A DNA stretch of 64,000 bases from Herbidospora daliensis. GTDB taxonomy: Bacteria > Actinomycetota > Actinomycetes > Streptosporangiales > Streptosporangiaceae. The DNA lies in contig NZ_BBXF01000001.1 of NCBI RefSeq assembly GCF_001570585.1, positions 675,691 through 739,690 of the forward strand, read 5' to 3'. How positions within the stretch are numbered: the stretch's first letter is position 1; each line of letters begins with the position of its first letter. Shown here piece after piece: positions 38,182 to 56,206 of this stretch. The translations under genes were made by a program, and so were the position numbers. The notes beneath the pieces were generated by a model, which was given only the letters and a program-made list of their open reading frames with translations, made no database searches and was not told the origin of the DNA.

Positions 38182-39147
38182 ATGACTCAGCAACGTGTTC
38201 TCGTCACCGGCGGGTCCGGCTTCGTCGCCGGGCACTGCATCCTCCACCTGCTCGACCAGGGATACGACGTCCGCACCACCGTGCGGTCGGCTTCCGGCGT
38301 GCTTCCCAGCGCCGACCTGACCGTCGTCACCGCCGACCTCCTCAGCGACGACGGGTGGGCCGACGCCGTCGACGGGGTCGACTTCGTGCTCCACGTGGCC
38401 TCACCGGTGCGCCTCGGACCGGTGGACGACGAAAACGACGTGATCGCCCCCGCTCTCGACGGGACCGTGCGGGTGCTCCGGGCGGCGAAGGAGGCCGGGG
38501 TCCGGCGGGTCGTGCTCACCTCCGCCTTCCACGCGGCCGGCTTCGGGCATCCGCCCACCGACCACACCTTCACCGAGGAGGACTGGTCCGTCGTGGACGG
38601 GCCGGGGATGGACGCCTACGGGCGGGCCAAGACGCTGGCCGAACGGGCGGCCTGGGACTTCGCGGCCGGGGGGCCGATGGAGCTGGTGACCCTGCTGCCG
38701 GTGGCGGTGATGGGGCCGATCCTGGGCGGGCAGATCACCGGGGCGAACCACATCCTCCGGGAGCTCCTGGAGGGGCGGGTTCCCGGGTCTCCCGGGATGT
38801 GGATTCCTGTCGTGGACGTACGGGACGTGGCCGGAGCCCACGTCGCGGCGATGACCGAAGGGGCGGCCGCGGGGCACCGGTTCCTGCTGTCGAGCGGCCC
38901 GGCCATGACGGTGCGGGAGATCGGGGGGCTTCTCCGTGACCATCTGGCGGAGTCGGCGCCTGAGGTGGCGGCGCGGATCGGGGCGTTGTTCTCTTCTGAG
39001 GACGGGGAGACGGAGCGGGCCAAGAGGGTGTCGAGCGAGAAGGCTCGGCGGGTTCTGGGATGGCGGCCACGAGCCTCGGAGGAGGCCGTCAGGGCGGGGG
39101 CGGACAGCATGATCGAAAGCGCGGCCAAGCGATCAGACGTTTCATGA
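38182..39147 (+). CDS. Extended SDR reductase (dihydroflavonol-reductase-like)
   Basis: A 321-aa NAD(P)-dependent epimerase/reductase: N-terminal V-T-G-G-S-G-F-V-A-G nucleotide site, H-V-A-S-P, T-S-A-F, and the active-site Y-G-R-A-K (YxxxK). Close to the family that reduces aldehydes/ketones such as dihydroflavonols or cinnamoyl-CoA; substrate unknown. It is paired with the divergent MmyB-type regulator. Confidence 0.87.
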   Translation: MTQQRVLVTGGSGFVAGHCILHLLDQGYDVRTTVRSASGVLPSADLTVVTADLLSDDGWADAVDGVDFVLHVASPVRLGPVDDENDVIAPALDGTVRVLRAAKEAGVRRVVLTSAFHAAGFGHPPTDHTFTEEDWSVVDGPGMDAYGRAKTLAERAAWDFAAGGPMELVTLLPVAVMGPILGGQITGANHILRELLEGRVPGSPGMWIPVVDVRDVAGAHVAAMTEGAAAGHRFLLSSGPAMTVREIGGLLRDHLAESAPEVAARIGALFSSEDGETERAKRVSSEKARRVLGWRPRASEEAVRAGADSMIESAAKRSDVS

Positions 39148-39193
39148 CCACACTGGCCAAACCGTCACATCCTCACTACCTGCGGCGAACCCA

Positions 39194-39216
39194 CTTTCTG
39201 TCAGTTTGACAAGAAG
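39194..39216. promoter_or_regulatory. Palindromic operator candidate upstream of the Nudix regulator
   Basis: Two 10-base arms (39194-39203 and 39207-39216) flank GTT and match in 8 of 10 positions; the inner TGTCA-GTT-TGACA is perfect. It ends 14 bases before the GTG of the Nudix gene, placing it over the promoter/start. NrtR-type Nudix regulators bind comparable palindromes, so autoregulation is likely. Confidence 0.5.
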
Positions 39217-39230
39217 CTACGGTGGGCCGG

Positions 39231-39929
39231 GTGAGCGATTGGGAGGCACCCCGCGTTCTGCTGGCGGTGGATCTGGTGATCCTGACCGTCCGCGGCTCTA
39301 CGCTGCAGGTCCTGCTCGTGGAGCGCGGGGTCGAGCCGTTCGAGGGCGCGCTCGCCCTGCCCGGCGGATTCCTCCGGGACCTCGACGAAGACATCCCGGC
39401 GGCCGCCCGGCGGGAACTCGAAGAAGAGGCCGGGCTCGCCGACGAGCCGCACCTCGAACCCCTCGGCGTCTACGGCGAACCGGGACGCGACCCGCGGGGG
39501 CGGGTGATCTCGGTGGCGCATCTGGCGATCGCGCCGCGGCTGCCGGAGCCGGTCGCGGGCACCGACGCGGCCGAGGCGTGGTGGAAGCCGGTGGACGACG
39601 TGTTGTCCGGCCGGCTGGAACTGGCCTTCGACCATCGGCGCATCGTCGCCGACGGCGTCGAGCGGGCCAGGGCGAAACTGGAGCATTCGGCTCTCGCCAC
39701 CGCGTTCTGTGGCGAGACCTTCACCATCTCAGAGCTGCAACAGGTGTACGAGGCCGTCTGGGGCGTGCAACTCGACCCCAGGAACTTCTACCGCAAGGTT
39801 CAGCGCGCCCAGGGGTTCATCGTTCCCGCCGGGCCGTCGCTGCGCCCGGGGAACGGCCGCCCGGCCCGGCTCTTCAGAGCGGGCCCCGTCCACACCCTGA
39901 ATCCCCCCATGGTCCGCTCCGCCCACTAA
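39231..39929 (+). CDS. Nudix-domain protein with winged-helix C-terminus (NrtR-like)
   Basis: A ~232-aa protein. The N-terminal Nudix domain carries P-G-G-F-L then E-x7-R-E-L-E-E-E-A-G-L, the Nudix box with one extra residue in its first spacer. The C-terminal part (about 140-230) has T-F-T-I-S-E-L-Q-Q-V-Y-E-A-V-W and N-F-Y-R-K-V, the winged-helix DNA-binding half of NrtR-type regulators, which sense ADP-ribose and control NAD genes. Alternative GTG at 39222. It ends ten bases before the nucleoside-phosphorylase-like gene, so it probably heads and controls that operon. Confidence 0.82.
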   Translation: MSDWEAPRVLLAVDLVILTVRGSTLQVLLVERGVEPFEGALALPGGFLRDLDEDIPAAARRELEEEAGLADEPHLEPLGVYGEPGRDPRGRVISVAHLAIAPRLPEPVAGTDAAEAWWKPVDDVLSGRLELAFDHRRIVADGVERARAKLEHSALATAFCGETFTISELQQVYEAVWGVQLDPRNFYRKVQRAQGFIVPAGPSLRPGNGRPARLFRAGPVHTLNPPMVRSAH

Positions 39930-39939
39930 GGAGACGCAC

Positions 39940-41085
39940 GTGACCAAGCCCTCCACGATCATCCTCACCGCCCTCGACCTGGAGTACGAGGCGGTCAAGG
40001 CACACCTCACCGGCGTCGAGACGCACCGCCACCGGGCCGGCACCCTCTTCGAGACCGGCCGCATCGGCGGCTGCCGGGTCGTCCTCGGCCTGGTCGGCAC
40101 CGGTAACCAGGCCGCCGCGGTCATCACCGAGCGGGCCATCACCGAGTTCGAGCCGTCGGCCGTGTTGTTCGTCGGCGTGGCGGGAGCGCTGTGGCCCCAC
40201 ATCGAACTCGGCGACGTCGTGGTCGCCAACCGGGCGTACGCCTACCACGGCCTGACCAGCGAGGACGACGGCGACAAGGCCCGCCCGCGAGCCTGGCAGA
40301 CCTCCCACTGGGCCGAGCAGATCGCCCATCACCTGGTTCGCGGCAACGCCTGGACCAAGTATCTGGCGCCCGGAGCAGAGATCCCGAAAGTCCACTTCGG
40401 GCCGATCGCGGCCGGTGAGGTCGTGCAGGACTCGGCCATCTCCGCGCACGCCAAATGGGTGCGGCAGACGTACAACGACGCCAAGGCCATCGAGATGGAG
40501 GCCGCCGGAGTGAGCGAGGCGGCGCATTTGAACGGGTCGCTGCCCGTCGTGGTCATCCGAGGCATCAGCGACCGGGCCGACGGCACCAAGGTCACCTCCG
40601 ACGGAGCGGGCTGGCAGCAGCGGGCCGTCACGAACGCGGCGGCGCTGGCCGCCGCGCTGACCGAGGAAATGTCCAAGGAGATCAAACCGAGGAACGACCC
40701 CAGAAAGGCGGCCGGCAAGCCCATGAACGAGCGCGTGACGAACATCGCCCGAGGCAACGCCCGAGTCGGCGTCATGGCCGGCGCCATTCACGGCGACGTG
40801 AACCTGAACCAGGCGCCCGAGGAGCGGGAGGACCCCGAGGTCCTGCTCGCGGAGTTGCGCCGCAGGCTCGGCGCGGCCAGGCGTGATGGGGTCGTCGACG
40901 AGGCCACCTACAGCCACGCCGGTCAGGAGATCGACACCGCGGCCGACTCTCTGGCAGAGGGAACGTCCGAGGGCAAGAGCACCGCGCTCATCGCGCTGAA
41001 GAAGGTGAACGGCCTGCTCATGGACGTGGCCGACCTCGCCGCACGGGTCGTGGCCATAATCGCGGCGATCAAGGGCTTAGGGTGA
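39940..41085 (+). CDS. Nucleoside-phosphorylase-like effector with C-terminal signalling motif
   Basis: A 381-aa protein. Residues 1-245 form a PNP/MTAN-type nucleoside phosphorylase or hydrolase domain: G-V-A-G-A-L (79-84), E-L-G-D-V-V-V-A (89-96), A-I-E-M-E-A-A-G (183-190) and G-I-S-D-R-A-D (208-214; Asp211 is the expected purine-binding acid). Residues 268-290 hold G-N-A-R-V-G-V-M-A-G-A-I-H-G-D-V, resembling amyloid/RHIM-like motifs linking effectors to sensors in actinobacterial conflict systems. A helical tail follows (296-381). Start: GTG with AAGGAGA six bases upstream. GTGA overlap with the next gene. The likely activity is nucleotide or NAD-precursor cleavage (inference). Confidence 0.8.
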   Translation: MTKPSTIILTALDLEYEAVKAHLTGVETHRHRAGTLFETGRIGGCRVVLGLVGTGNQAAAVITERAITEFEPSAVLFVGVAGALWPHIELGDVVVANRAYAYHGLTSEDDGDKARPRAWQTSHWAEQIAHHLVRGNAWTKYLAPGAEIPKVHFGPIAAGEVVQDSAISAHAKWVRQTYNDAKAIEMEAAGVSEAAHLNGSLPVVVIRGISDRADGTKVTSDGAGWQQRAVTNAAALAAALTEEMSKEIKPRNDPRKAAGKPMNERVTNIARGNARVGVMAGAIHGDVNLNQAPEEREDPEVLLAELRRRLGAARRDGVVDEATYSHAGQEIDTAADSLAEGTSEGKSTALIALKKVNGLLMDVADLAARVVAIIAAIKGLG

Positions 41086-43064
41086 ACGAGACCGTCAACC
41101 ATGTAGAGGACTCCATGGTCGGCGTTCTGGCCGACGTCGTTCACAACGTCTACCAGAACTTCTACGAGCAGGCGAAAGCCTTAACGGCTGCCGAGTCTTT
41201 CGATATCGGTCTGGGCTACCTGCACAGAGGGGTGCCCGACAAAGCCAGGGAGCACATCACCGACGCGGTGACCCGTGGCCATGTGAGCAGCCGATCCTAT
41301 CTCTATTTGCTGCTCGCCCTGCTGAGCGGCCGCACTCTTCAACAGGTGGAGAAGTCCGAGTTCGAGCTGCTGCGTTCCCTGCGGAGCAAGCTGGAAGACC
41401 AGGCCGGCGACTCGTGGTCACAGGCGATCCGTGCGATCAACGATCTTCTGGCCACGCTGGTGAAAGAGGACCTCGACCCGCAGGCTGTCAACGACCGGCT
41501 TAAGGAGGTCCATCCCGAAAGGCGAGAAGAGATCCTTCGCCATCTGGACATCTTCCTCAACGGCCCCATTCTCGATGGCCTATGGACACGGACGTCCGAC
41601 TCGGCGAACGAGAACCGCTTCGAGAACAACCGTCTCGAGAGGGCCTGGAAGTTCTTCCACCCCGAACCGGCCGGCGCGCGGGCGCGGCTGCCCATGCCGA
41701 GCCGAGTGACCTTTGGCGACCGGGCGCGCGCCTACGCGTACACGGGGGTCGGCACGTGGTGTCTGCTCTGGCTGGTCGTGGTCGCGTGGCAGAGCAACTG
41801 GTCGGCTGCGGTCGTCGGTCTCCTCCTCTTCGCGGGCGGAGCCCGCCTAGCCGTTCTCGACCTGTCCGAATGGCGTTCCGCGCAGCCGCGAAAAACGGTC
41901 GGATTCAGCCGCCTTCCCCGCGTGGCCGCCCCGGCAGGAGGTTTTGCGAACAAGGTCGATCGGAAGTTAGACCAACTCTTCGCGAAATACGCTCAGGAAG
42001 ACATCACCCGGGCCGTTTGGCTGGAGGAGACCCAAGACGCGCGCAGCGTCCTTCGAGATGAGATCGTCGAAATCTACAGAGACGAGAGAACCAGCGCGGA
42101 CGAGGTCGCGTGGCTCATCGAACACTTGGTGGCCGGCATCAGAGCGCGTTGGGAGAAAGGGACCCTGCGAGACTCCGGTGAGCCGCGCGCTGTCCCCTTC
42201 TCCAGGAAGGCCTTGGTGGCCTGCGGGGCCGTCGCCGTGCTCGTCGGCACCGCAATCATGACATGGAGCGCCATCCACATCCGGCCGGTCACCGGACTGC
42301 TCGACACCACGGTTCTCCTCGCCTGCGTGTGGGCCGCCGTCGGGCGATGGTCCTTCATCCGCGCGGAGCGACGAAGGGCCGAGGCAGAGACGGCAAAGTA
42401 CAAAGCCGTCATGGCCGATCGGTTGGCCGCTTACGAGAGGTGGAAGCAGCAGCTGGCCGACAGGCCAAACGACACCGAGATGGCCGAATGGCTCGACCAC
42501 GACCGCAAAGCGCTGCTGGCCGAAGCCATGACCCGCTGGAAGCTCACGGCGAGGGACATCGTCGCGCACACCTTCATCGAAAGGCCCTTGCGGCCATATG
42601 AAAGAGCCCGTCTGGCCGACGGCCCGTGGCGCTATTCGCGGTATCGCATCCAGGTGCTGCTGCTGACTAGTGACGGCGTCCGGCAGATCGGTATGAGCCT
42701 CGAATTTCTCAACGGTGAAATTCGCCCCGGAGTTCGGTTCAGCTACCAGTACGACAAGGTGGTGTCCGCGAAGGTGCAGCCGGTCTTCGGCCGAATGACC
42801 TTCGAGCTCACGCTGGTCAACGGCGACCCCATCAAGATCACCGTGGCCGATGAGGACGCGGACCTGCCCGAGGTCACCGAGCTGACGCTCGACGCGGCCG
42901 GCCTCGGCAACACCCTGCACCTCCTCGAGGGGATCGCGGCGGAGGGCAAACGGTGGATCGGCAACGAGCGGGCGCGGGAGCGGGAAAAGGTGAAGGAGCT
43001 CGCGGAGGCCGCAAGGGTGATCTTCGACGGGCCGTCCAGTGATCCGCCAATGTCCACTGTCTAG
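41082..43064 (+). CDS. Multi-pass membrane protein with helical-repeat N-terminus, partner of the phosphorylase
   Basis: A 660-aa protein of no named family. Residues 11-27 contain S-M-V-G-V-L-A-D-V-V-H, matching the partner's motif at V-G-V-x-A-x-x-(V/I)-H. Residues 30-165 are helical and TPR-like (Y-L-H-R-G-V-P-D-K-A-R-E-H-I). Membrane pairs lie at about 218-257 and 376-424, each followed by charged helices. Residues 505-620 look like a beta-rich PH-like domain (Y-R-I-Q-V-L-L-L-T-S-D-G; V-V-S-A-K-V). It overlaps the phosphorylase gene by GTGA, so the two are co-translated. A membrane-bound sensor or scaffold is likely (inference). Confidence 0.75.
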   Translation: MNETVNHVEDSMVGVLADVVHNVYQNFYEQAKALTAAESFDIGLGYLHRGVPDKAREHITDAVTRGHVSSRSYLYLLLALLSGRTLQQVEKSEFELLRSLRSKLEDQAGDSWSQAIRAINDLLATLVKEDLDPQAVNDRLKEVHPERREEILRHLDIFLNGPILDGLWTRTSDSANENRFENNRLERAWKFFHPEPAGARARLPMPSRVTFGDRARAYAYTGVGTWCLLWLVVVAWQSNWSAAVVGLLLFAGGARLAVLDLSEWRSAQPRKTVGFSRLPRVAAPAGGFANKVDRKLDQLFAKYAQEDITRAVWLEETQDARSVLRDEIVEIYRDERTSADEVAWLIEHLVAGIRARWEKGTLRDSGEPRAVPFSRKALVACGAVAVLVGTAIMTWSAIHIRPVTGLLDTTVLLACVWAAVGRWSFIRAERRRAEAETAKYKAVMADRLAAYERWKQQLADRPNDTEMAEWLDHDRKALLAEAMTRWKLTARDIVAHTFIERPLRPYERARLADGPWRYSRYRIQVLLLTSDGVRQIGMSLEFLNGEIRPGVRFSYQYDKVVSAKVQPVFGRMTFELTLVNGDPIKITVADEDADLPEVTELTLDAAGLGNTLHLLEGIAAEGKRWIGNERAREREKVKELAEAARVIFDGPSSDPPMSTV

Positions 43065-43074
43065 GGTCGAAACC

Positions 43075-43665
43075 ATGGATTACGTACGTTTGGGGCAGAC
43101 CGGTCTCAAGGTCAGCCGCATCTGTCTCGGCATGATGAGCTACGGCCAGCCCAGCGAAGCCGCCAGCTGGATCCTCCCCGAAGACCAGTCCGAACCCCTG
43201 GTCCGCCAAGCCGTAGAAGCCGGCGTCACCTTCTTCGACACCGCCGACGTCTACTCCGCCGGCGCCTCGGAAGTCGTCACCGGCAACCTGCTCAGGAAGT
43301 TCTTCGAGAGCAGAGACGACTACGTCCTCGCGACGAAGGTCTTCTTCCCCGTCCGCCAAGGCCAGAACGACAAGGGCCTGTCGCGCAAGCACATCATGGC
43401 CGCCATCGACGACTCCCTCACCCGCCTGGGCACCGACTTCGTCGACCTCTACCAGATCCACCGCTGGGACGACGAAACCCCCATCGAAGAGACGATGGAA
43501 GCCCTCCACGACGTCGTGAAGGCCGGCAAAGCGAGATACATCGGCGCGAGCTCGATGCGCGCCTGGCAGTTCGCCAAGGCCCAGCACGTCGCGGAGGTCA
43601 ACGGCTGGACCAAGTTCGTGTCGATGCAGAACCACTACAACAAGTACTTCACTTGTCGCGGGTAG
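43075..43665 (+). pseudogene. Aldo/keto reductase, 5' half, interrupted by the integrated element
   Basis: Residues 1-189 are a normal aldo/keto reductase N-terminus with the catalytic tetrad Asp55, Tyr60, Lys88 and His129 (D-T-A-D-V-Y; L-A-T-K-V; Y-Q-I-H-R). After Asn189 (in N-H-Y-N) the frame runs seven foreign residues into the element and stops. The missing part continues at 55799. Joining the halves at the 8-bp repeat gives an unbroken 324-aa protein of normal length. The gene starts ten bases after the membrane-protein gene, so it may have been the last gene of that operon. Confidence 0.93.
43634..43641. repeat. attL core (ACTACAAC)
   Basis: The eight bases ACTACAAC here and at 55791-55798 are the only identity at the two junctions, and they fall exactly where the split aldo/keto reductase resumes. 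A short core is expected of large serine integrases. Confidence 0.85.
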
Positions 43666-44088
43666 AAGACCATCACCGTGTAAAGCGACCCCGGATTCCT
43701 CGACGAGACGACGAAGGCCGGTTGAGCTGCCGAAATGCTCCCAGCCATACCGCCCGAGGCCAGATCCGCAAGCCTAAAAGATCTTCAAGCAAGCCCGATC
43801 AGCGACGAGTTTCTCTACAAGGTCAAGGCGGCCCGCCTTTCGGCAGGCCGCGTAGAGGCGTGTAGCCCGCTCCACCCACGCCCAGCAATGTCGACTGGAA
43901 TCAATGCCAGATAAGCATCAGAACGTTTTCATGGGTTTATCTGGGCGGTACTATTGACCAATCGCAAACGAAGATCGAAAAGATGAACGATAACGGTCGG
44001 GTCATAATTCATCCGACGTCGGACCCAAATTCATCACCTCGAACCGGATGACTCCACGAGGTGCTACCTCAACAGGTCGGATTAAGAT
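43642..44088. other. Left end of the element, mostly non-coding
   Basis: Between attL and the first clear gene I see only one short ORF (43735-43914). A/T content rises sharply from about 43900. In the excised circle this stretch would lie directly upstream of the integrase gene, so it may carry the integrase promoter and half of attP. Confidence 0.4.
43735..43914 (+). CDS. Possible 59-aa small ORF near attL
   Basis: An ATG-initiated 59-residue frame with a plausible soluble segment (S-L-K-D-L-Q-A-S-P-I-S-D-E-F-L-Y-K-V-K). It has no convincing ribosome-binding site and no recognised family. It could be a decayed gene end or a small excision factor, but nothing proves translation. Confidence 0.25.
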   Translation: MLPAIPPEARSASLKDLQASPISDEFLYKVKAARLSAGRVEACSPLHPRPAMSTGINAR

Positions 44089-44772
44089 TTGATCCCGCTT
44101 CAAACCATCATAAATATTTCAACTTTCACAGTAGGCGCCATAGCGGTCCTTATGCTGATTTTCGGCTTCGTTAGATATGTAACATCTAGCAGAGAGTCGT
44201 CTACTGTACAATCCGCCAAGAATGTCATCCTATATGCCATCACTGGCCTGGCAATCGCACTCTTGTTGAACGCGATCATGGTTTTTGTCTTAGGAGACCT
44301 AAGCTGGGATCTCCAAATCGATACACTATGGCTCCTGGTCGCAATCTTCATTATCGTTGCAGTGGTGGCAGCGTATTTCCTTGTGGCTTATGTGTTCCAA
44401 AAGCGTCTGGCCGCCGAAATCAAAAAAGAGCGCATAAGGTTGAGTTCAAACAATTTATCCCAACTAATAACCATCCTCGAAAATACGCCAAGCGACTTTT
44501 TCTTGGAAGTTCTCCGTGAGGCGCGCGACGGTGGAACGGAAATCAACTATCAGGCACTGGCCCAAAGACGCCATGACAGTAAGTTTGGTACCGACCGCCA
44601 TTTCGATAGAGGTTTCGACCTACTCGAAGTAAGCGATAGCGAGGATTCTGCTCCCGCCGTCAGGGCCATAGCTTCGGGGCTTGATGCCATCTTCCGAAAG
44701 TTGGGCCCCCCACCCGAAGGCAGCATCAAAGACGTTAAGCATCCCGTTCGGGGCGATGGCGGTCGCACATGA
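44089..44772 (+). CDS. Membrane protein with type IV secretion pilin-like N-terminus
   Basis: A 227-aa protein starting with TTG. Residues 1-70 show two hydrophobic helices separated by V-R-Y-V-T-S-S-R-E-S-S-T-V-Q-S-A-K-N-V, then A-I-T-G-L-A-I-A-L-L. This closely follows the helix-S/A-K-N-helix pattern of small VirB2/TrbC-like pilins (T4SS_pilin type) of Gram-positive bacteria. A third helix (about 82-104) leads to a cytoplasmic, charged tail (105-227). It overlaps the next gene by ATGA. Codon use is much less GC-biased than the chromosome, indicating recent acquisition. Transfer function or a membrane effector are both possible. Confidence 0.6.
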   Translation: MIPLQTIINISTFTVGAIAVLMLIFGFVRYVTSSRESSTVQSAKNVILYAITGLAIALLLNAIMVFVLGDLSWDLQIDTLWLLVAIFIIVAVVAAYFLVAYVFQKRLAAEIKKERIRLSSNNLSQLITILENTPSDFFLEVLREARDGGTEINYQALAQRRHDSKFGTDRHFDRGFDLLEVSDSEDSAPAVRAIASGLDAIFRKLGPPPEGSIKDVKHPVRGDGGRT

Positions 44773-45191
44773 CTAAGAATACTCCGAACAACTCGGATGC
44801 CAGTGGGCTTGAAATTGCGCTGCAATGGGCTGAGCTTCCGACCGATCACTTGCAAGTTGCTCTCGCCGCCCTAGAACCCCAGCTGCAGCGAGAGCACGAA
44901 ATTAGAAAGATTAAATTACAGCACGATCGCGAAAGCATCAAGGAGCGACGCAATCACCTTTTGTATATGACAGGACTCTATATGGCGTTTACCATTTCAG
45001 TTGGAGCCATCGCTGGAGCAACGGTCGCAGGGTTAGAGGGAAACCTTCCCCTCGCCCTCATTTTGTGCGGACCTACAATTCTATCCATCATTGGAATATT
45101 CGCCCTCAGGAAGAGTTCTGCCTCGCAGATCCGCGAAGCTTCCAAACAACAGAAAGAACTGCTAGCTTCGGCGCAATTAATGCAGCCTTGA
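44769..45191 (+). CDS. Small membrane protein with coiled coil
   Basis: A 140-aa protein. Residues 35-62 form a charged helix (Q-L-Q-R-E-H-E-I-R-K-I-K-L-Q-H-D-R-E), followed by two membrane helices (about 65-88 and 95-112) and a charged C-terminal helix. No family is recognised. Its ATG overlaps the stop of the pilin-like gene, so the two are co-expressed and probably act together at the membrane. Low-GC codon use as in its partner. Confidence 0.6.
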   Translation: MTKNTPNNSDASGLEIALQWAELPTDHLQVALAALEPQLQREHEIRKIKLQHDRESIKERRNHLLYMTGLYMAFTISVGAIAGATVAGLEGNLPLALILCGPTILSIIGIFALRKSSASQIREASKQQKELLASAQLMQP

Positions 45192-45313
45192 CTAGCTGTA
45201 CGTGTCGCCGAAGACGCCTTTCGGGGAGGCGATCAACTTAACCAAAAATCTCATAGTATTAGTGGTCACTAGGCGGCCGAGCCCCCGCGTGGGCATCGAA
45301 ATCATGATCGTGA

Positions 45314-46620
<1,307 letters not shown>

Positions 46621-47646: not shown

Positions 47647-48852
47647 TTGGAGAAATTCGGCGCAGCCTTACGCCGTCTGCGTGGTGATCTCACGACTCGC
47701 GAACTCGCCAGCCGTGCCGCCGTATCCAAGAGCCACATTTCCGATTTGGAGACAGGCCGACGCGCTCCCAGCGCACAAGTCGCCACTGCTCTCGACAGGG
47801 CGCTTTCCGCCAACGGCGAGTTGGTCGCGCTCTACTCCCGATCGATCTCTGCCGCACCGCATTACCAAGCACCCGCAGAAGCATCGGGAACGACGGACTA
47901 CGTTTCGGAGATCCGAGACACGAACCTCCACCTGATCGCTCTCGACTCACGGTACGGAGGAACCGGAATCGCGGACGTCGCGCTTCAGGCGTTCCGTTCC
48001 GCAAGGCGAACGATCGCGACCGGGGCGCACACCGCCAACGAAACCGACCTCCAGGCCGCCACAGGCGAAACCGGTGAGATCGCTGCTTGGTGCCTGTACG
48101 ACGGAGACCGACTGGACGAGTCACGCGTCGTCACCCACGAGGCGATGTTCATGTCCCGGCTCGCAGGTGACCGGGCCATGGAACTCTTCTCACTCTCCCA
48201 TCTGGCCCTGATCGACCTACATCAGCGACACTCACGCGACGCCTTACGCATCGCCGAGAGCGTCATGGATCCCGGATTCGTCGCCCCTCGGCTCGGAGCT
48301 CTTTTCAAGATCCGGGCAGCCCGCGCGCTGGCTCAATCAGGAGACCGGCGCCGATCGCTCGAGACTCTCGCCCAGGCCGAGAGCGCGTTGCTCGACTCGG
48401 TTCATCCGCATGACCCTCACTGGACGTGGTGGCTGGACTCCTCGGAGATGGCTGTTCAAAGAGGCCTGCTCTATCTGGAGTTGGGTGAGTACTCGGCGGC
48501 GATGCCTCACCTAAACGACGCCGCGCACGGCCGGATACGCCGCGACCCCTACGCCCCGGCGAATGGCACGAGCATCACAGCGCACGGCGAAGAATGGGGC
48601 CGCGCGGCGTACAACGACCTGATTCATCTCTTCCTGGCGCTGGCCATGGCGGAGGCGTGGTCAGACGCCGAGTCGATCGCCGCGACTGTCACCGAGTTCA
48701 CCCGCGAGGTGGTCTCGGCCCGCAGTGAGGTGATGTTGAAGACGGCCGTCAGGCTCGTCTTCTCGGCAAGTCCTCAGGGGGGACCATCAGGGAGCCTGCT
48801 CGATCTCTCGGAGGAAATCTGCCGCGCTCGAGCGTGGTCCGTCACTCGGTAG
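47647..48852 (+). CDS. XRE regulator with helical-repeat (TPR-like) domain
   Basis: A 401-aa protein. The HTH spans residues 5-55: A-L-R-R-L-R-G-D-L-T-T-R-E-L-A-S-R-A-A-V-S-K-S-H-I-S-D-L-E-T-G. The remaining ~330 residues are helical with repeat-like spacing, as in Streptomyces NsdA/BldB-neighbour-type regulators. It starts with TTG, with AAGGG eight bases upstream. It may set the element's lysogeny-like state or control the two small divergent genes. A hairpin follows its stop. Confidence 0.8.
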   Translation: MEKFGAALRRLRGDLTTRELASRAAVSKSHISDLETGRRAPSAQVATALDRALSANGELVALYSRSISAAPHYQAPAEASGTTDYVSEIRDTNLHLIALDSRYGGTGIADVALQAFRSARRTIATGAHTANETDLQAATGETGEIAAWCLYDGDRLDESRVVTHEAMFMSRLAGDRAMELFSLSHLALIDLHQRHSRDALRIAESVMDPGFVAPRLGALFKIRAARALAQSGDRRRSLETLAQAESALLDSVHPHDPHWTWWLDSSEMAVQRGLLYLELGEYSAAMPHLNDAAHGRIRRDPYAPANGTSITAHGEEWGRAAYNDLIHLFLALAMAEAWSDAESIAATVTEFTREVVSARSEVMLKTAVRLVFSASPQGGPSGSLLDLSEEICRARAWSVTR

Positions 48853-49172
48853 AAAACCGTGCCGTGATGCGTCCATAGAAGTGCACGTCGGCGCACTTCT
48901 TCATAATGCGCAATACTGCCGATATGTCATTGCATATGACGCGGACGACACAAGAGCCACAAATGCATTGCTCTTTGTGCTGGATTAATTCTCAAAGACA
49001 GCATGCATCATATTGATGGATACACAAGCGATTGAGTATATCCATTTCCTTGAACAGAGGCGCCGCAACTTCAACACGATGGCTTTCTGCCCAGATAACC
49101 GATCGCCGGCCGACTATGACGGAGATTCGAGGTAAGCGATCATCCAAATGCATCCTCATGGAAGTAACGAGT
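48853..49172. other. AT-richer intergenic region between convergent genes
   Basis: Apart from the hairpin at 48877-48900 I see no gene or recognisable element. GC content drops clearly from about 48900 and stays low through the NTPase-kinase gene, marking a composition boundary. Confidence 0.5.
48877..48900 (+). terminator. Hairpin after the XRE regulator gene
   Basis: AGAAGTGC (48877-48884) and GCACTTCT (48893-48900) pair perfectly with an 8-base loop, 25 bases after the stop. No long T-run follows, so terminator function is probable but not certain. Confidence 0.45.
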
Positions 49173-51848
49173 TCAATCGTCGACCGACGAAATACCGCCT
49201 CCACGCATCAGCCTCTCAACAGGAAGGACGACGGCATTCGCGAGGGAGACGTTACAAACGGTACAATGAGTGACGACCAGAGGGCTGATATGCCCGTGAA
49301 TACAGGCGTAGCCGGATAGAATCTCAGTTGGCGCTTCCCCCCAATAATCGGGGCGCATCATCGAGCGGATATCGACAGGGCGAGTGTCCGTCACCTCCCA
49401 ACCTTGTTCAGACGGGGTCGAGGAGTCATCAGAGGTGAAAGTTTGGCCCTCCGGAGTCAAGCGTAGGGCGTCGATAATATCTGCTGGAACACGAAAACGA
49501 TCCTCGGGATGGAGTGCGACTATTTTTCTAATCACCTCGCGTAGCTGTGGAGTCGCATCGAAACCCTCCATAATCAAGTTCCCACTGATTATATTGGCCA
49601 CCACAGCTGGTAAATTATCTGCATTCTCATACGGAATCCGACCGGTCAGCGCAAAGCACATAACCACTCCGAGGGAATAGATGTCACCCCTGATGTCGAC
49701 AGGCATGCTGGAGATGCTTTCTGGAGACATGTACGCGGGGGTGCCGATCAGAAGGTTCGCATCGGTGACAACGGTCATATCTGAGCGTTTAGCAATTCCG
49801 AAGTCAATGATGACCGCTCCCGATGAAGGCGTCATCATAATGTTGGATGGCTTAAGATCGAGGCGAAAGACTCCTTGTAGCCTTAAATATTCTAGAGCTT
49901 CGGCCACCTGTAACGCCATCAGTGTCACATCCTCAGACGGAAGAGGTCCTTGGGTGTCAACCAATTCCTGGAGCGTAATCCCATCAATCAGATCCATGAT
50001 AAGGATAGGTAGGCCGTCGTCTCCAGAAATGACCTCCAGAGTTCGGACAATGCGCGGATGACGAAGCACGACCGCGATCGTGGCTTCTCGGTCGTAACGA
50101 GACGCCAGCTCAGGATTCAAGCGGTCGCCACTGTGTGGCATCTTAACGGCGACTTCACGTCTAAGTCTTTTGTCGCGAGCGCGGTAGACACGGCTCATTC
50201 CGCCTTCCCCGATCAGTTCGACCAGTTCGTATCGATCAGCAATGGTCCGCAATACCGACTCCAACACGGTCCCGTCCATAGACTGGCCAGCGGATCCCGC
50301 AGTTGTAGAAGTGTCCAAACCCAGCGGTACTCGGAGTGACACAGCTAGCGCCGCACGCTCGCTCTCATTGCCCCATGCAATGCCCAGAAGTTGAGCCGCA
50401 ACCTCATCGGCGAGTTTGTAAGAGACGACACCGCCTTCAGCCTCTTGGCCGACCATCGTGGCGTCTGCGCGCTCAGGGTCGCGCACCACGACAAGAATTT
50501 CATGGTCTGTCAGGTGACGCAGGAGACGATTGACGCTTCGGCGGGCGATACGAAGGAGCGGATCTAGTTCAGGTTCCTCGGCGGAACCCTCAATATCCAG
50601 TACTGTGAAGGAATCCCCTTGCCGCCTGAGAATCCAGTCCACAACGTAATAGCCCATCAGCCGCCATCGATCCTCGTCGATCTCCTCACGGAACAACCGC
50701 TCGCGGTGTCCTCTGCTGAAATACGCTCCTAGCAATTCCTCCAGCCGGGCGTAGAAAGCCACACGGACTTTGTCTGCATCATCGATTACTAAGAAAGGGC
50801 GGCCTCGCTCCCAGCGGATAAGATCTCCGAATTCTTGGAGAAGGCGACGCGGAACCCCTCGCGCCTTGAAGCGTAAATAGCTTGCGAGCTCATGGGCCGC
50901 TGGCGAGTCCCCGTCCTTTAGAACATGCTTGACGAGCATGTCAGGCGCATGCCAAATACAGGGAACATAGCGGCGCCATGCGAAAACACTTTCGTACACA
51001 CCGTTGCCTCGACTGGAATCACGGACCGCGTGGTCATGGAGATCGGGTCCAGCGGCCACCAAGAAATGCGCTCCACGCATTGTCAACGTATTTTTGATAC
51101 TACTGAGCAGGTGTTGCACTTCGTTCAGCCCATCCGGGCTTGATGTCAATTTATCGACTTCATCGAGGACGATTACGAGGTGTACCTTCGCTACTTTTCG
51201 ACGCCACCAGCGCCGGGCCGGTGCCGGGCGGCTGAGGAGCTTTATGATACGAGCTAGGTCGTGTTCGACATCGCTTTCCGCATAGGTGAGGTAAGAAGCC
51301 TCCATGGCGAGCGACTTGGTGCGTTTGGTGGAAAAGCCGACGCTCGGGACGAGCCAACCCGCCGGACCACTGAGCTTCTTAATGGCTGTACCCACCCCCA
51401 GCTGCAGCGAGGTCCCACGCTCCGACGCATCGGATCGGGTTTGCTTTATCCCGATCGACGTTCTAATGTATGCCAACATGAGCGCACGCTGAGTTGTTTC
51501 ATCCAGGCGTGCAATGACGTTCTCATCCGCGAGCGCCTCATAAAGACGGCGAACGATCGCGAACAATAGATGCTCTGCCGCAATGGGGCGTGCGACATTA
51601 ATAATGATCGGTACCACGATTTCGCCGGTCGTAGTGCTGGAGATGACTCCCAGAGCTTGCATTATAATTGTACTTTTCCCCACACCGCGGAATCCGGTGA
51701 TAAGAAACGTTCCACCCTTGGACTGTTCAAGTCGCTGCCTGAGCTCTTGAATAAGGCCCTGATTACCAAGAAGGGGAAGATCCTTCTCATCCACTTGAAG
51801 TGGTTCGTGAACGTATCGAAAAGATTCTTTCAGGGGTAGCCTTAGCAT
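49173..51848 (-). CDS. AAA-type NTPase fused to Hanks-type kinase and zinc ribbon
   Basis: An 891-aa single polypeptide. Residues 20-350 form a P-loop NTPase with Walker A G-F-R-G-V-G-K-S-T (52-60) and Walker B H-L-V-I-V-L-D-E-V-D-K (223-233). A winged-helix-like region follows (about 425-485). Residues 540-800 are a Ser/Thr kinase: G-E-G-G-M-S-R-V, Lys569, catalytic loop R-L-D-L-K-P-S-N with Asp664, D-F-G 682-684 and S-P-E 708-710. The residue before Asp664 is Leu, so it is a non-RD kinase. The tail has C849-x3-H853...C862-x2-C865, a zinc ribbon. Low-GC codon use. Nucleotide-sensing switch, possibly phage defence (inference). Confidence 0.85.
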   Translation of the reverse strand: MLRLPLKESFRYVHEPLQVDEKDLPLLGNQGLIQELRQRLEQSKGGTFLITGFRGVGKSTIIMQALGVISSTTTGEIVVPIIINVARPIAAEHLLFAIVRRLYEALADENVIARLDETTQRALMLAYIRTSIGIKQTRSDASERGTSLQLGVGTAIKKLSGPAGWLVPSVGFSTKRTKSLAMEASYLTYAESDVEHDLARIIKLLSRPAPARRWWRRKVAKVHLVIVLDEVDKLTSSPDGLNEVQHLLSSIKNTLTMRGAHFLVAAGPDLHDHAVRDSSRGNGVYESVFAWRRYVPCIWHAPDMLVKHVLKDGDSPAAHELASYLRFKARGVPRRLLQEFGDLIRWERGRPFLVIDDADKVRVAFYARLEELLGAYFSRGHRERLFREEIDEDRWRLMGYYVVDWILRRQGDSFTVLDIEGSAEEPELDPLLRIARRSVNRLLRHLTDHEILVVVRDPERADATMVGQEAEGGVVSYKLADEVAAQLLGIAWGNESERAALAVSLRVPLGLDTSTTAGSAGQSMDGTVLESVLRTIADRYELVELIGEGGMSRVYRARDKRLRREVAVKMPHSGDRLNPELASRYDREATIAVVLRHPRIVRTLEVISGDDGLPILIMDLIDGITLQELVDTQGPLPSEDVTLMALQVAEALEYLRLQGVFRLDLKPSNIMMTPSSGAVIIDFGIAKRSDMTVVTDANLLIGTPAYMSPESISSMPVDIRGDIYSLGVVMCFALTGRIPYENADNLPAVVANIISGNLIMEGFDATPQLREVIRKIVALHPEDRFRVPADIIDALRLTPEGQTFTSDDSSTPSEQGWEVTDTRPVDIRSMMRPDYWGEAPTEILSGYACIHGHISPLVVTHCTVCNVSLANAVVLPVERLMRGGGISSVDD

Positions 51849-52241
51849 CTATCCCCAGCCTCCCAACACGCTTGTTTCAACTATTGAGCGTAGTCATATG
51901 ATCACCCATGGTGGGCGACATTGGCAATAGCTGGCCTACGATCACGAACTATCAAAATTCTTCGCCATGAGGGAGCGCACAGTTCGCAGCTAGCTACAAC
52001 GAGGAGGGCTTGCGGGATCGTTCGGCAAGGGTGGCGGCACTATTCGGCCGCCCAAAACGTCGAGTTGAACTAAAGTGTTAGTCATCAATGACCGTAATCG
52101 ACCCGCAGTCACCTTGGCTGATAGCGCGACCTCGTGAGGCGCCGGAGCTTGCTTCCGCCGTAGCCATCCTCCGCCCGCCGAACTCGATTTGCTCGCCCTA
52201 CAGGTCCCCATGGCATTCCGCCGGCCCACCACTCCCGCCGT
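51849..52241. other. Intergenic region between rep and the NTPase-kinase gene
   Basis: About 390 bp without a convincing gene. It should contain the promoter of the minus-strand NTPase-kinase gene. GC content rises again towards the rep side. Short open frames here have no ribosome-binding site or recognisable sequence. Confidence 0.45.
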
Positions 52242-53660
52242 TCAACTCTGAGAAACCTGCCGTCGTTCGTTCTCACGCTTGATGCGCCGGGCCGTCGACA
52301 CCTGTTGCCGAGCGATCTCGGCCCAGAAGTGTTCGCCCTTGCCGTGCCCACTCCCCGCGTACCGCCACTGCAACATGGTCACCGTCTCCCGGTCATCCTC
52401 TGCCAGTCCCAAGGACGCGCGAGCCAACGACCTCCGGTAGTTCGCGCGGACCTGGCGGAGAGCGCCCAAGGTCGTCGAGTACTGGCGGGACCTGGTCGAG
52501 AAGTGGCCCCGATAACCGAGCATGTGCGCCCACTGTTTGAGTCGTAGGCGGTCGAAGCCCGGCATCATCGACAGCGCCCAGCAGGTGTAGATCATCCTCC
52601 GGGCGTGCTCGCTCACCTTGAGGTCGTCGATCTGTTCGGGACGTCTCACCCGCCGGTCCACCGTTCCCGCCGACTCAGCGCCCTTGGTGGCGTACTTAGC
52701 GATGTAGGCCGCCACCCTGCCGTCTGTCATGCCGCCCAGTTCCGCGCCGAGGTAGACCGGCTGCACGTCGAGTTGCCGACCCCACCGCAGGACGACGCGA
52801 CGCCCCTCGTCTCCGCGTACTCCTGTCAAGGCCGTCACCTTTACTCGTTCGGCAGTTCGCCTGATCGCCTCGTCCAGCAGGGGAACGGTTGCCCAGGACG
52901 GAGGAGGATCGCCAGGACCGGCCGGGCCGTCGAGCCGAATCACGGCGTGGAAGTGAACCAAGCCGCGCGTCTGGTATTCGGCAACCTTGGCGTAGGAGAC
53001 GCGCAGGTTCCGCCGCAACTCGGCACGGGAGATGCCACGCTGCCCGGCGAGGGTGGTCAGCACGTCCCGAGTGAAGCAGCGCCACAGCTCCCCGGCATGA
53101 GCGTTCCACAGGACCGCGCCCGAGTAGTCGAAGCAGTCCGCGCAGATGGGCTGTCCTAGCCGCGAGTCGTCCTGACCATGACGCACCCGGCACCCTTCCG
53201 GCCGCCCATGCACACAGAGCGGATCGCCCCGCCGAGGACGGCACAACAGAGCCTTGCCCGCACGCTCACGACGGGAGTGCACCGCCCCGAAGGACGGCGC
53301 GGTGAACGTGGCGAACACGCGAGGATGCGCGCTGACCTCCTCTGGCACGCCCTTGCCGCCCTGCAACCCGGAGATGATCAGGTGGAAGGTGTCGTCTCGG
53401 TACACCTCAGAGCAGGCCGGGCACCGGGAGGCCCGCCTGTTTCCGCAGGCGGTCAGCAGGTAGCCGGTAGGTTCGTCAGCCGTCCGGTAGGTCTCGACGA
53501 TCTCGCCGGTCTGCGCGTCGGCAACGTACCGCTCACCATGCAGCCGGATCGGTTGAGCGCACCCACCCGTGGCCTTGACCATCTGCTGCCAGCGAGGAAA
53601 GTCCGGCAGCCCCGCCCGTTCGGCAGCGGCGTACATGTCGGCGGTGAAGGGACCGGTCAT
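52242..53660 (-). CDS. RepSA-like HUH replication initiator
   Basis: A 472-aa replication initiator of the pSAM2/RepSA type. Cys-rich N-terminal zinc region (A-C-G-N-R-R-A-S-R-C-P-A-C), then D-C-F-D-Y-S-G-A-V-L-W-N-A-H, the HUH metal motif G-L-V-H-F-H-A-V-I-R-L-D-G, and the catalytic-tyrosine region Y-I-A-K-Y-A-T-K-G. It nicks DNA at an origin for rolling-circle replication of the excised circle. The ATG is set by a four-base ATGA overlap with the preceding small gene; the longer frame upstream is discounted. Confidence 0.92.
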   Translation of the reverse strand: MTGPFTADMYAAAERAGLPDFPRWQQMVKATGGCAQPIRLHGERYVADAQTGEIVETYRTADEPTGYLLTACGNRRASRCPACSEVYRDDTFHLIISGLQGGKGVPEEVSAHPRVFATFTAPSFGAVHSRRERAGKALLCRPRRGDPLCVHGRPEGCRVRHGQDDSRLGQPICADCFDYSGAVLWNAHAGELWRCFTRDVLTTLAGQRGISRAELRRNLRVSYAKVAEYQTRGLVHFHAVIRLDGPAGPGDPPPSWATVPLLDEAIRRTAERVKVTALTGVRGDEGRRVVLRWGRQLDVQPVYLGAELGGMTDGRVAAYIAKYATKGAESAGTVDRRVRRPEQIDDLKVSEHARRMIYTCWALSMMPGFDRLRLKQWAHMLGYRGHFSTRSRQYSTTLGALRQVRANYRRSLARASLGLAEDDRETVTMLQWRYAGSGHGKGEHFWAEIARQQVSTARRIKRENERRQVSQS

Positions 53661-53833
53661 GAGGCCATCGCCTCCTCGCCAGTAGACGAGGAGGCGGGTT
53701 CGTCGATGTCGCCACTGATCTCGACACCGAGGATGCAGCCGATTCGCTGCCACTTCTGTTCTGACCACCGGGGGCGTTCGGCAGCTTTCTTCCTGCCCCA
53801 CTCACGAGCTGAGGTTGCAGGGCGCAAAGTCAA
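53657..53833 (-). CDS. Small protein translationally coupled to Rep
   Basis: A 58-aa protein starting at TTG. The start is decided by a perfect AGGAGG seven bases upstream. The sequence is basic then acidic (S-A-R-E-W-G-R-K-K; S-E-Q-K-W-Q-R-I-G-C-I-L-G-V-E-I). Its TGA overlaps the rep ATG. Similar-sized genes precede rep in other actinomycete elements; a regulator of Rep or excision factor is possible but unproven. Confidence 0.7.
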   Translation of the reverse strand: MTLRPATSAREWGRKKAAERPRWSEQKWQRIGCILGVEISGDIDEPASSSTGEEAMAS

Positions 53834-54222: not shown

Positions 54223-55764
54223 TCAGCCTTCAGACCAAATGGGGTCCAGGAGGTCGGGATTGAATACTTTGCTCCCCTTGATCCCCGGATAAACGATCAC
54301 CGCTCGAAACGCCTCGCGCAGATAGGCCCGCTTCGTGGACAGCGGCATACCGCCTTCCTCCTCCGGCAGATACCAGCGTCGACGGAAGTCCTCCACATCG
54401 ATGACCTGCCGGGCCGTCTCGCGCTCCACCGCCGCCGTGTGCCTCTTCGACTCGCCGCGAAGGCGAGCGATGGTCTTCTCCAGGTCGCCGGCCAACTGGA
54501 AGAACAGGTCATTGGACATGCCGCCGGAATTCCACTGAACAGAGAGCGCCTTAAGACGTACTTGCGCGTCGTTCAGTTCTTTCGCGCCCGCCCACTCCTG
54601 AGGCCGGACTCCCTGCCGCCGGCCCATCTCCTTGTCTTCGAGACTCGCCAGCAGCGCCTCAGAGATGAACTCGTCCACGAGGTCACCCCGCCGCGAGACA
54701 CCACCGCAGCCGCCCTCTGACTTGGACGGGCAGGCATATGCGTGCTGCCTGACATCCGTCTGCCCGGTCACCCGCAGTTTGGTGTTGCACAGAACGCCGT
54801 CCGGCCCCGCCTTCCCACACCGCAGGATGCCGACCAGCAGATAGCGCGCGTCCCGGTAGTCCGGCGAATGAGCCGGACCAAGTTCGCCGTTCCGCCGGAC
54901 GAAGTGACCCTTTCGCCCGTCGAACATGTCGCGGATGGTCTGCCATTCCTCCGGAGAGATGATCGTCTCCCAGACGCCTTCCACCGGGTTGCCGTCAGGA
55001 CCACGGACGAGTTCCCCGCCGATCTCCCGCCACCCGCACAGACGCGGGTTCGTCAGCACGACCTTGAGCGACCGCGAGATCCAGTCGTTGCCGAGGCTGG
55101 TCTTCACGCCGAGGCGCTGCCACTCCATGACGATCGAATACACCGACCGGCCACCGATGAAGTCCCGGGCCGCCTTGCGCACAAGATCGGCCTCAGCCGG
55201 GTCGAGAGTGCGTCGGTCGTCCTTCCACCCGAACGGTCGAGGCCCGCCACTCGGTACGCCGCGCTGTGCCCGCGACTGGTGAGAAGTGCGCATCCGGCGC
55301 TGCATCTTGCGGACCTCCATCTTGGAGATCACCGCCCCGAACAGGCCCATGCTCTCCACGTCTTCGCTGTACAGGTCCTTGACCTGCCGCTTGTCGGCGT
55401 AGACCCGCCCGTCGCGGTGAGTGAAGGCATCCACGACCCGCTCGTAGTCACCGGGACGCCGCACCAGCCTGTCATCAGCGACAACGACCAGGCCGGAAAC
55501 AGGAGCGCCCTCGGACAGCTTGCCCGCCTTGAGGACCTTCAGCAGGAGCTCGAAGTCATCGCGCACTACATCCATCTTGGCGGCCGACTTGTCGTTGTCG
55601 GTGAACTCCGCCACCACGACCCAGCCATTCTGCTTGGCTGTCTCGTGGTTGATGCGGTGCTGGTCCTCCACGCTGTGCTCATCCCGCCGAAGGTCGGCGG
55701 AGGCGCGAGCGTAGGACACGACCGGGATCATCCCGCTGGTCAGCGCTACCGAGAGCTTCTGCAT
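54223..55764 (-). CDS. int: Large serine recombinase (integrase)
   Basis: A 513-aa serine integrase. Resolvase domain: S-Y-A-R-A-S with catalytic Ser22 and downstream D-D-R-L-V-R-R. Recombinase domain: G-G-P-R-P-F-G-W-K-D-D-R. Zinc ribbon with C-x-x-A-G...C-N-T-K and Y-A-C-P...G-C-G-G. C-terminal coiled coil (about 390-440). The ATG at 55764 follows a weak GAGG; an upstream TTG (55791) begins inside the attR core, and an internal ATG is also possible. The gene is adjacent to attR, as expected. In the integrated state its upstream DNA is host coding sequence. Confidence 0.94.
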   Translation of the reverse strand: MQKLSVALTSGMIPVVSYARASADLRRDEHSVEDQHRINHETAKQNGWVVVAEFTDNDKSAAKMDVVRDDFELLLKVLKAGKLSEGAPVSGLVVVADDRLVRRPGDYERVVDAFTHRDGRVYADKRQVKDLYSEDVESMGLFGAVISKMEVRKMQRRMRTSHQSRAQRGVPSGGPRPFGWKDDRRTLDPAEADLVRKAARDFIGGRSVYSIVMEWQRLGVKTSLGNDWISRSLKVVLTNPRLCGWREIGGELVRGPDGNPVEGVWETIISPEEWQTIRDMFDGRKGHFVRRNGELGPAHSPDYRDARYLLVGILRCGKAGPDGVLCNTKLRVTGQTDVRQHAYACPSKSEGGCGGVSRRGDLVDEFISEALLASLEDKEMGRRQGVRPQEWAGAKELNDAQVRLKALSVQWNSGGMSNDLFFQLAGDLEKTIARLRGESKRHTAAVERETARQVIDVEDFRRRWYLPEEEGGMPLSTKRAYLREAFRAVIVYPGIKGSKVFNPDLLDPIWSEG

Positions 55765-55790
55765 GCGCCTCATCATGCATGAGATGCGCA

Positions 55791-55798
55791 ACTACAAC
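55791..55798. repeat. attR core (ACTACAAC)
   Basis: Identical to attL at 43634-43641. Host reading frame resumes immediately after it with the L-L-Y-R-E-E-E-R-E segment that normally follows N-H-Y-N in this reductase family. Confidence 0.85.
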
Positions 55799-56206
55799 CT
55801 CCTCTACCGCGAGGAGGAACGCGAGATGATCCCGCTCTGCGCCGACCAAGGCGTCGGTCTCATCCCCTGGTCCCCTTTGGCAAGGGGCCTCCTGGCCCGC
55901 GCCGGCCAAACCCGCCACACCACCCGCCAGGAAGGCGACGGCGACCGCCAGCGTTTCCTCTACGGCGGCCCCGGCGACGCCGACGTCCTGGCCAAGGTCG
56001 CCGAACTGGCAGCAGAGCGCGGCACAGCCCCGGCGACCCTCGCGCTGGCCTGGCTGCTCCACCAGCCCGGCATGGTCGCCCCCATCATCGGCGCCACGAA
56101 AGACGGCCACATCGCCGACGCCCTGGCCGCCATCGGCCTCGACCTGTCAGACAAGGAACGGGCAACCCTGGAAGAGGGCTACCAGCCCAGGTCAGCCCAC
56201 TTCTGA
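55799..56206 (+). pseudogene. Aldo/keto reductase, 3' half, separated by the integrated element
   Basis: Encodes the last 135 residues of the interrupted reductase: L-L-Y-R-E-E-E-R-E-M-I-P-L-C, G-L-I-P-W-S-P-L-A-R-G and the coenzyme-binding P-I-I-G-A-T-K. It cannot be translated as a normal reductase here, although an in-frame ATG within the element end could give a truncated, inactive fragment. Codon use is that of the chromosome, so the split is recent. Its end overlaps the convergent cold-shock gene by 15 bases. Confidence 0.93.

Follow-up and report, generated by a model that had tools for sequence, protein, structure and literature searches.

An ORC/STAND-like ATPase fused to a non-RD Ser/Thr kinase in an integrative element of Herbidospora daliensis: a mobile family with a possible role in conflict signalling

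In bacteria as in plants, NLR-like ATPases that turn on an effector have a central place in immunity. In the STAND kinases PknK and AcoK, an N-terminal kinase is fused to a STAND-type NTPase, and TPR-like regions come after it, so that NTPase-gated kinases are already known in this domain order; to our knowledge, no characterised bacterial NLR-like ATPase has a protein kinase as its directly fused C-terminal output.

Regarding published work on related proteins, PknK was studied in PMC9045387, PMC7159879 predicted active kinases fused to zinc ribbons in conflict neighbourhoods of actinobacteria, and PMC8195603 predicted that KAP and STAND ATPases act as switches in conflict systems. Integrative elements of the AICE type carry a serine or tyrosine integrase, RepSA and cargo, and the cargo lists from Frankia include protein kinases and an aldo/keto reductase (PMC3218068).

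The window analysed here is a stretch of 64,000 nucleotides of the Herbidospora daliensis genome (contig NZ_BBXF01000001.1), and the gene of interest occupies positions 49173-51848 of its minus strand; the frame is open, has no internal stops, and encodes 891 aa that join in one chain an ORC/Cdc6-STAND-like AAA+ ATPase, a winged-helix region, a non-RD kinase and a zinc ribbon. Like PknK and AcoK, the protein holds a Ser/Thr kinase and a STAND-type NTPase in one polypeptide, but the order of the two domains is reversed, with the NTPase first and the kinase second. No description of this NTPase-first order, or of the fusion family, was found in the literature searched. In window coordinates, the gene and its parts are as follows:

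49173..51848, minus strand: gene for the NTPase - winged helix - non-RD kinase - zinc ribbon protein, 891 aa
50739..51848, minus strand: AAA+/STAND-like NTPase domain, about aa 1-370 (Pfam AAA_16; ORC/Cdc6-like fold; ORC4 by profile)
51669-51695 and 51150-51176, minus strand: Walker A and Walker B, inside the NTPase domain
50349..50684, minus strand: winged-helix-like region, about aa 389-500 (AlphaFold2 secondary structure)
49434..50249, minus strand: PknB-like kinase domain, aa 534-805 (Pfam Pkinase; fold match to M. tuberculosis PknB)
49842-49865, minus strand: R-L-D-L-K-P-S-N, with catalytic D664 at 49857-49859
49254..49304, minus strand: zinc-ribbon-like Cys/His cluster C849, H853, C862, C865 (motif spacing)

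An earlier note, made from the letters of this DNA, had described this four-part fusion; Pfam, the motifs and the AlphaFold2 model agree on it, so that the observation is confirmed, and on firmer ground than its author could know. Pfam recognises AAA_16 at aa 30-248 (41.9 bits, cut-off 32.6) and Pkinase at aa 540-785 (135.6 bits). In the AlphaFold2 model (pLDDT 74, built with 15 sequences), the AAA+ core is followed by the winged-helix-like region (helices 389-408, 416-424 and 436-448, then strands 452-456 and 476-479), a flexible linker (506-532) and the kinase; after it the chain has another flexible segment (806-843) and ends in a small domain, where the zinc-ribbon-like spacing reads C849-x3-H853-x8-C862-x2-C865. 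Walker A (GFRGVGKST) lies at aa 52-60 as the earlier note had it, with K58 and not Lys59 as its lysine, while the Walker B that it had placed at 223-233 is present as VIVLDEVDK at aa 225-233.

As for the class of the NTPase, Foldseek and VIA lists obtained with the full-length protein were filled by kinases and were uninformative. With the NTPase model alone, which is of low confidence (pLDDT 67-74), archaeal and eukaryotic Orc/Cdc6 proteins matched best: the top Foldseek matches were archaeal Orc1/Cdc6 (E 2.6e-7), and VIA returned Orc1 as the best match (Z 12.4, rmsd 5.0 over 222), together with RdrA (Z 10.8), the plant NLR NRC2 (Z 10.6) and TnsC (Z about 10-11). A single-protein sequence search of the NTPase against the PDB gave chance matches only; a profile of 21 NTPase sequences had human Orc4 as its best match (E 5e-4). 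The residues D229 and E230 are invariant, and K58 is nearly so in the full alignment. In the low-confidence model, an AAA+ core with both Walker motifs is followed by a winged helix, as in the ORC/Cdc6 initiators and the STAND ATPases (NB-ARC/NLR, Avs; RdrA, TnsC, BrxC), whereas in sequence the resemblance to them does not extend beyond about 75 residues around Walker A. The Pfam model KAP_NTPase falls just below its cut-off on aa 43-280 (19.9 bits against 20.0), and AAA_16 fits the protein better. Hence, the NTPase is assigned to the broad ORC/STAND-like class, and to no narrower family because the confidence of the model is modest. Pfam finds no TPR, LRR, WD40 or other repeat in the 891-aa protein; unlike STAND ATPases with such a sensor after the NTPase, it has a protein kinase, and then the zinc ribbon, in the C-terminal place.

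The kinase domain is PknB-like, and aligns with M. tuberculosis PknB over 256 residues with Z 32.2, rmsd 1.8 and about 35% identity. The beta-3 lysine K569, the alpha-C glutamate E588, the catalytic D664 in R-L-D-L-K-P-S-N, K666, N669 and the DFG aspartate D682 are invariant across 15 aligned sequences, and this complete set predicts an active Hanks-type Ser/Thr kinase. The arginine of the RD motif is replaced by Leu in the window protein, by Leu, Ile, Val or Phe in its relatives and by Gly in L077, the acidobacterial copy; the non-RD character that the earlier note had pointed out is a conserved trait of the family, present in all 32 sequences read, in contrast to the other readable kinases of the same genome, which are RD in 37 cases out of 39. 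The accompanying proposal that the kinase is probably not activated by loop phosphorylation is weak: 14 of the 15 aligned rows share T695, a threonine in the activation loop, and loop autophosphorylation may therefore still occur. The literature found on non-RD kinases in defence was plant work, with no bacterial case.

Compared with curated families, the protein reaches 208.2 bits with NCBIfam PknB_PASTA_kin, far under the cut-off of 450, and 63.9 bits with BREX_PglW against a cut-off of 990, so that by these cut-offs neither the PASTA kinases nor PglW, which the earlier note had named beside Stk2 as a precedent, are close relatives; Pfam finds no PASTA domain in it, and the HRD arginine of the PknB/PASTA kinases of actinobacteria is L, I, V or F here. 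NCBIfam MADS6 (MAD6, methylation-associated defence) gives 121.3 bits against a cut-off of 460. Finally, PADLOC matches the protein to PD-T4-6 with 218.9 bits and gives more to two ordinary kinases of this genome (243.9 and 227.8), so the match is non-specific and was rejected as evidence of defence.

The kinase gene sits in a serine-integrase/RepSA element of 12,165 bp that splits an aldo/keto reductase gene, and the features of this element are the following:

43039..43641, plus strand: 5' part of the split aldo/keto reductase target gene
43634..43641: attL core ACTACAAC, 8 bp
43852..45370, plus strand: second variable slot, near attL, with two membrane-protein ORFs (44089-44772 and 44769-45191)
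45401..46387, plus strand: cargo aldo/keto reductase, also in the element of congener G301
47647..48852, plus strand: XRE-HTH/NsdA-like TPR regulator, left border of the slot, also in the G301 element
48853..52218: cargo slot with the kinase gene, 3366 bp
52242..53801, minus strand: RepSA-type replication initiator, right border of the slot (Pfam RepSA 533.8 bits)
54223..55791, minus strand: large serine recombinase (integrase) that starts at attR (Pfam Resolvase/Recombinase)
55791..55798: attR core ACTACAAC, 8 bp
55799..56206, plus strand: 3' part of the split aldo/keto reductase target gene

The target gene is whole in five of the six congeners, and in one of them, G299, the empty site reads straight through the same 8 bp. 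The element has the integrase with flanking att sites and the RepSA of AICEs, and differs from those described (PMC3218068) in that no FtsK/SpoIIIE-type Tra translocase was found among its Pfam-scanned ORFs; therefore, it is a mobilisable or remnant form. Another congener, G301, carries a related element at the same site, with about 87-92% identity in the backbone. Between the stop codon of the regulator (48852) and the end of repSA (52219) there are 3366 bp in the window, and about 345 bp of unrelated DNA in G301, with a possible ORF of 107 aa and no kinase; the second slot of G301 holds a different gene, of 459 aa (L096 17079-18455). The content of the slot differs between the two elements, so the kinase is replaceable cargo, either gained in the window element or lost from that of G301. 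This agrees with the earlier description of the gene as AT-rich cargo of an integrative element: GC is 54% in the kinase slot, 65% in the element backbone and 71% in the rest of the window. The G301 cargo genes (459 and 107 aa) had no Pfam or PADLOC match, and were rejected as recognisable defence genes.

Two minor points concern the integration site. The aldo/keto reductase carried as cargo (45401-46387) is different from the aldo/keto reductase whose gene the element sits in. In G297 and G298 (L081 and L083 among the loci compared), short matches to the recombinase gene (54792-55024) lie beside the intact target gene, which suggests that other such elements, or their remnants, occupy the same place.

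The NTPase-kinase core recurs at about 30 other loci, with 31-67% identity in the NTPase, and its hosts include Streptosporangiaceae, Streptomyces, Micromonospora, Frankia and one acidobacterial MAG. A search of 84,980 species with an alignment as query, where a single-protein query had matched nothing, gave 30 loci from Nonomuraea, Planobispora, Actinomadura, Thermomonospora, Amycolatopsis, Micromonospora, Glycomyces, Streptomyces, Wenjunlia, Frankia and one Acidobacteriia MAG. Within the order, 347 genomes were surveyed: 15 besides the window genome have a clear homologue, in some cases truncated or deleted, and another three have fragments or weak matches; none of the six congeners has a homologue, and none was found on phage, plasmid or viral contigs. 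The Actinomadura copies are polyphyletic in the family tree. The order NTPase then kinase holds in every copy read, and close pairs are under purifying selection (dN/dS 0.12-0.53); a core kept at about 30 loci under such selection indicates that the fusion is not due to chance.

What varies in the family are the ends. Zinc ribbon plus FHA ends occur in L030 and L043 (FHA by Pfam) and in L031 and L032 (aligned extension), HTH_17 ends in L040 and L042 (by Pfam) and in L035, L037 and L039 (similar sequence), and L077 ends in HEAT and FHA; a second kinase, of the RD type, is C-terminal in L030 and N-terminal in L038, and other copies have a kinase without any added end module. The 891-aa protein has no FHA domain after its zinc ribbon. 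By eye, L039 has an N-terminal extension with a transmembrane stretch ahead of the NTPase, and that of L042 combines such a stretch with the look of a degenerate kinase; also by eye, L010, the only weak match at the level of the phylum, is a distant KAP-like membrane protein.

Regarding mobility elsewhere, a different integrative element, which has a serine recombinase and a gene that is FtsK-like by eye, carries L033 at its end, L068 adjoins a Tn3-type transposase, and one family copy adjoins a gene that is IS30-like by eye; most relatives lie outside recognisable elements. Two congeners, L037 and L040, have the gene in common in surroundings that are almost entirely different, and in two Micromonospora species (L061/L062) a unit of 3.46 kb is 99.9% identical between unrelated flanks. 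Outside integrative elements, the kinase gene moves alone; a conserved partner gene was looked for across the loci compared and rejected, as none was present.

Neighbours were taken as the genes within four of each family copy (n=184). Few of them match PADLOC at E <= 1e-15 among the matches listed, which is not clearly more than in the control, 2 of 39 window genes; the immediate neighbours are mostly metabolic enzymes (Pfam, among the matches listed). Three copies are linked to restriction-type genes. In L044 (8991-14521), the kinase copy comes immediately after McrB and McrC, which share its strand, and is internally deleted, with the Walker B region gone. In L041 (7609-12087), it is flanked by a ScoMcrA-like sulfur-binding HNH enzyme (E 2.7e-57) and a same-strand DUF4231 membrane protein, and in L062 (14775-20240) a fusion of 1822 aa, made of an HsdM-type N6-methylase, NACHT, pentapeptide and WD40 parts, is three genes from the kinase. 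Against background rates of 33 McrC matches in 121 genomes and an estimated 1.8 or so N6-methylases per genome, about 0.08 McrC or N6-methylase neighbours are expected in the 30 loci and 2 were seen, with a nominal P of 0.003 that assumes genomes of 7500 genes and a ten-gene window and comes from a test picked after the matches were seen. All three copies come from one part of the family, and they seem to be related; with a post hoc test and assumed sizes, this makes the excess a rough lead.

In the portion of PMC7159879 devoted to GAP1-N2 conflict neighbourhoods, a same-chain NTPase is not described for their kinase-zinc ribbon-beta domain proteins, and the PP2C and vWA partner genes of those neighbourhoods are absent among the neighbour families listed here. 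As an observation apart, L034 (3033-9927) of Actinomadura hibisca has two more kinases (558 and 556 aa) beside the kinase fusion, and a protein of 1120 aa adjoining it that is without a Pfam or PDB match.

The earlier note had proposed a defence protein in which an NTPase sensor switches on a toxic kinase, to be sought in defence islands and abandoned if close homologues were chromosomal without mobile or defence links. The fusion itself was found again, and the outcome for its surroundings is mixed: most copies lie between ordinary metabolic genes, and, on the other side, two are in integrative elements, one is beside Tn3, one is beside an IS30-like gene and three are restriction-linked. A defence role for the kinase fusion, with a toxic kinase as its output, is possible, and the defence reading stays plausible.

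The reading tentatively placed first here is that the 891-aa protein belongs to a family of AAA+/STAND-gated Ser/Thr kinases, so far undescribed and spread horizontally, whose likeliest role is conflict signalling. The gene would have been captured as cargo in the replaceable slot of an AICE-like integrative element. The ORC/STAND-like ATPase and the winged helix would sense a trigger, and upon ATP binding the ATPase module would oligomerise, bringing the kinase domains together and switching them on; the C-terminal modules, a zinc ribbon in this protein and FHA or HTH_17 in others of the family, may direct the kinase towards DNA or phosphorylated partners. The response to phage or other invading DNA would then proceed via phosphorylation of host targets. 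The published predictions of kinase-zinc ribbon proteins and KAP/STAND switches in conflict systems make such a role reasonable. It is favoured by the fused architecture and the fold, the catalytic invariants, the conserved non-RD motif, purifying selection and patchy spread, as well as by the slot swap between sister elements and the restriction-type neighbours of three related copies. Against it stand the lack of PADLOC enrichment, the metabolic neighbours, the absence from phage, plasmid and viral contigs, and the origin of the restriction-linked copies from one family part, with one internally deleted; besides, the presumed sensor half is well conserved (mean column identity is 62% in the NTPase and 39% in the whole alignment), unlike fast-evolving defence sensors. 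A narrower form of the conflict reading, which is possible though less likely than not, sees a single-gene defence family where the ORC/STAND-like ATPase directly gates the non-RD kinase, the FHA, zinc-ribbon and HTH_17 ends are interchangeable, and the gene travels as a solo cassette among chromosomes, integrative elements and restriction loci.

Ordinary accessory regulation comes close behind conflict signalling, and is a serious competitor: an ATPase-regulated Ser/Thr kinase, spread horizontally and with no defence role, would tune transcription, development or metabolism. The mostly metabolic neighbours are what it predicts, FHA and HTH_17 ends are standard signalling or DNA-binding modules, and the kinase is PknB-like in a phylum that carries such kinases by the dozen (51 matches in the H. 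daliensis genome); the NTPase is also more conserved than a sensor of invaders should be. However, patchiness and repeated relocation, the swap of the cargo slot and the restriction-type neighbours of three copies are odd for a housekeeping regulator. With ordinary signalling as its role, the family would still be one of mobile kinases, labelled PD-T4-6 by defence-gene models without good reason.

It is unlikely that the kinase serves the element by controlling its excision, replication, transfer or stable maintenance; its gene does lie between the regulator and repSA of the element, and L033 is likewise at the end of an integrative element, a different one that encodes a serine recombinase and, by eye, an FtsK-like protein, but the G301 sister element keeps the common backbone genes without a kinase, and most relatives are not in recognisable elements. 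Least probable of all is that the window copy is decaying cargo without present function that lost an FHA behind the zinc ribbon, because, despite broken or internally deleted copies elsewhere (L046, and also L044, L070 and L074, which are internally deleted or frameshifted) and the FHA extension of its nearest relatives (L030, L031, L032 and L043), its catalytic motifs are all intact with no internal stop and many intact relatives also lack FHA; a frameshifted FHA remnant was rejected, no trace being found downstream in any frame.

The family offers about 30 natural variants with a conserved non-RD kinase that is catalytically intact by sequence, and the window and G301 elements are a natural plus/minus pair at one site; as a result, ATPase gating and host protection can be tested directly. 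Immediately upstream of the disrupted aldo/keto reductase gene, the window also has a gene pair (39940-43064) for a nucleoside-phosphorylase-like protein (PADLOC match 'Effector, PN-superfamily') and then a protein of 660 aa. The stretch 39115-43073 is missing from G299, and G298 and G300 have relatives of the gene for the 660-aa protein close to this site; the pair may be a second accessory island at this site, possibly with a role in conflict.
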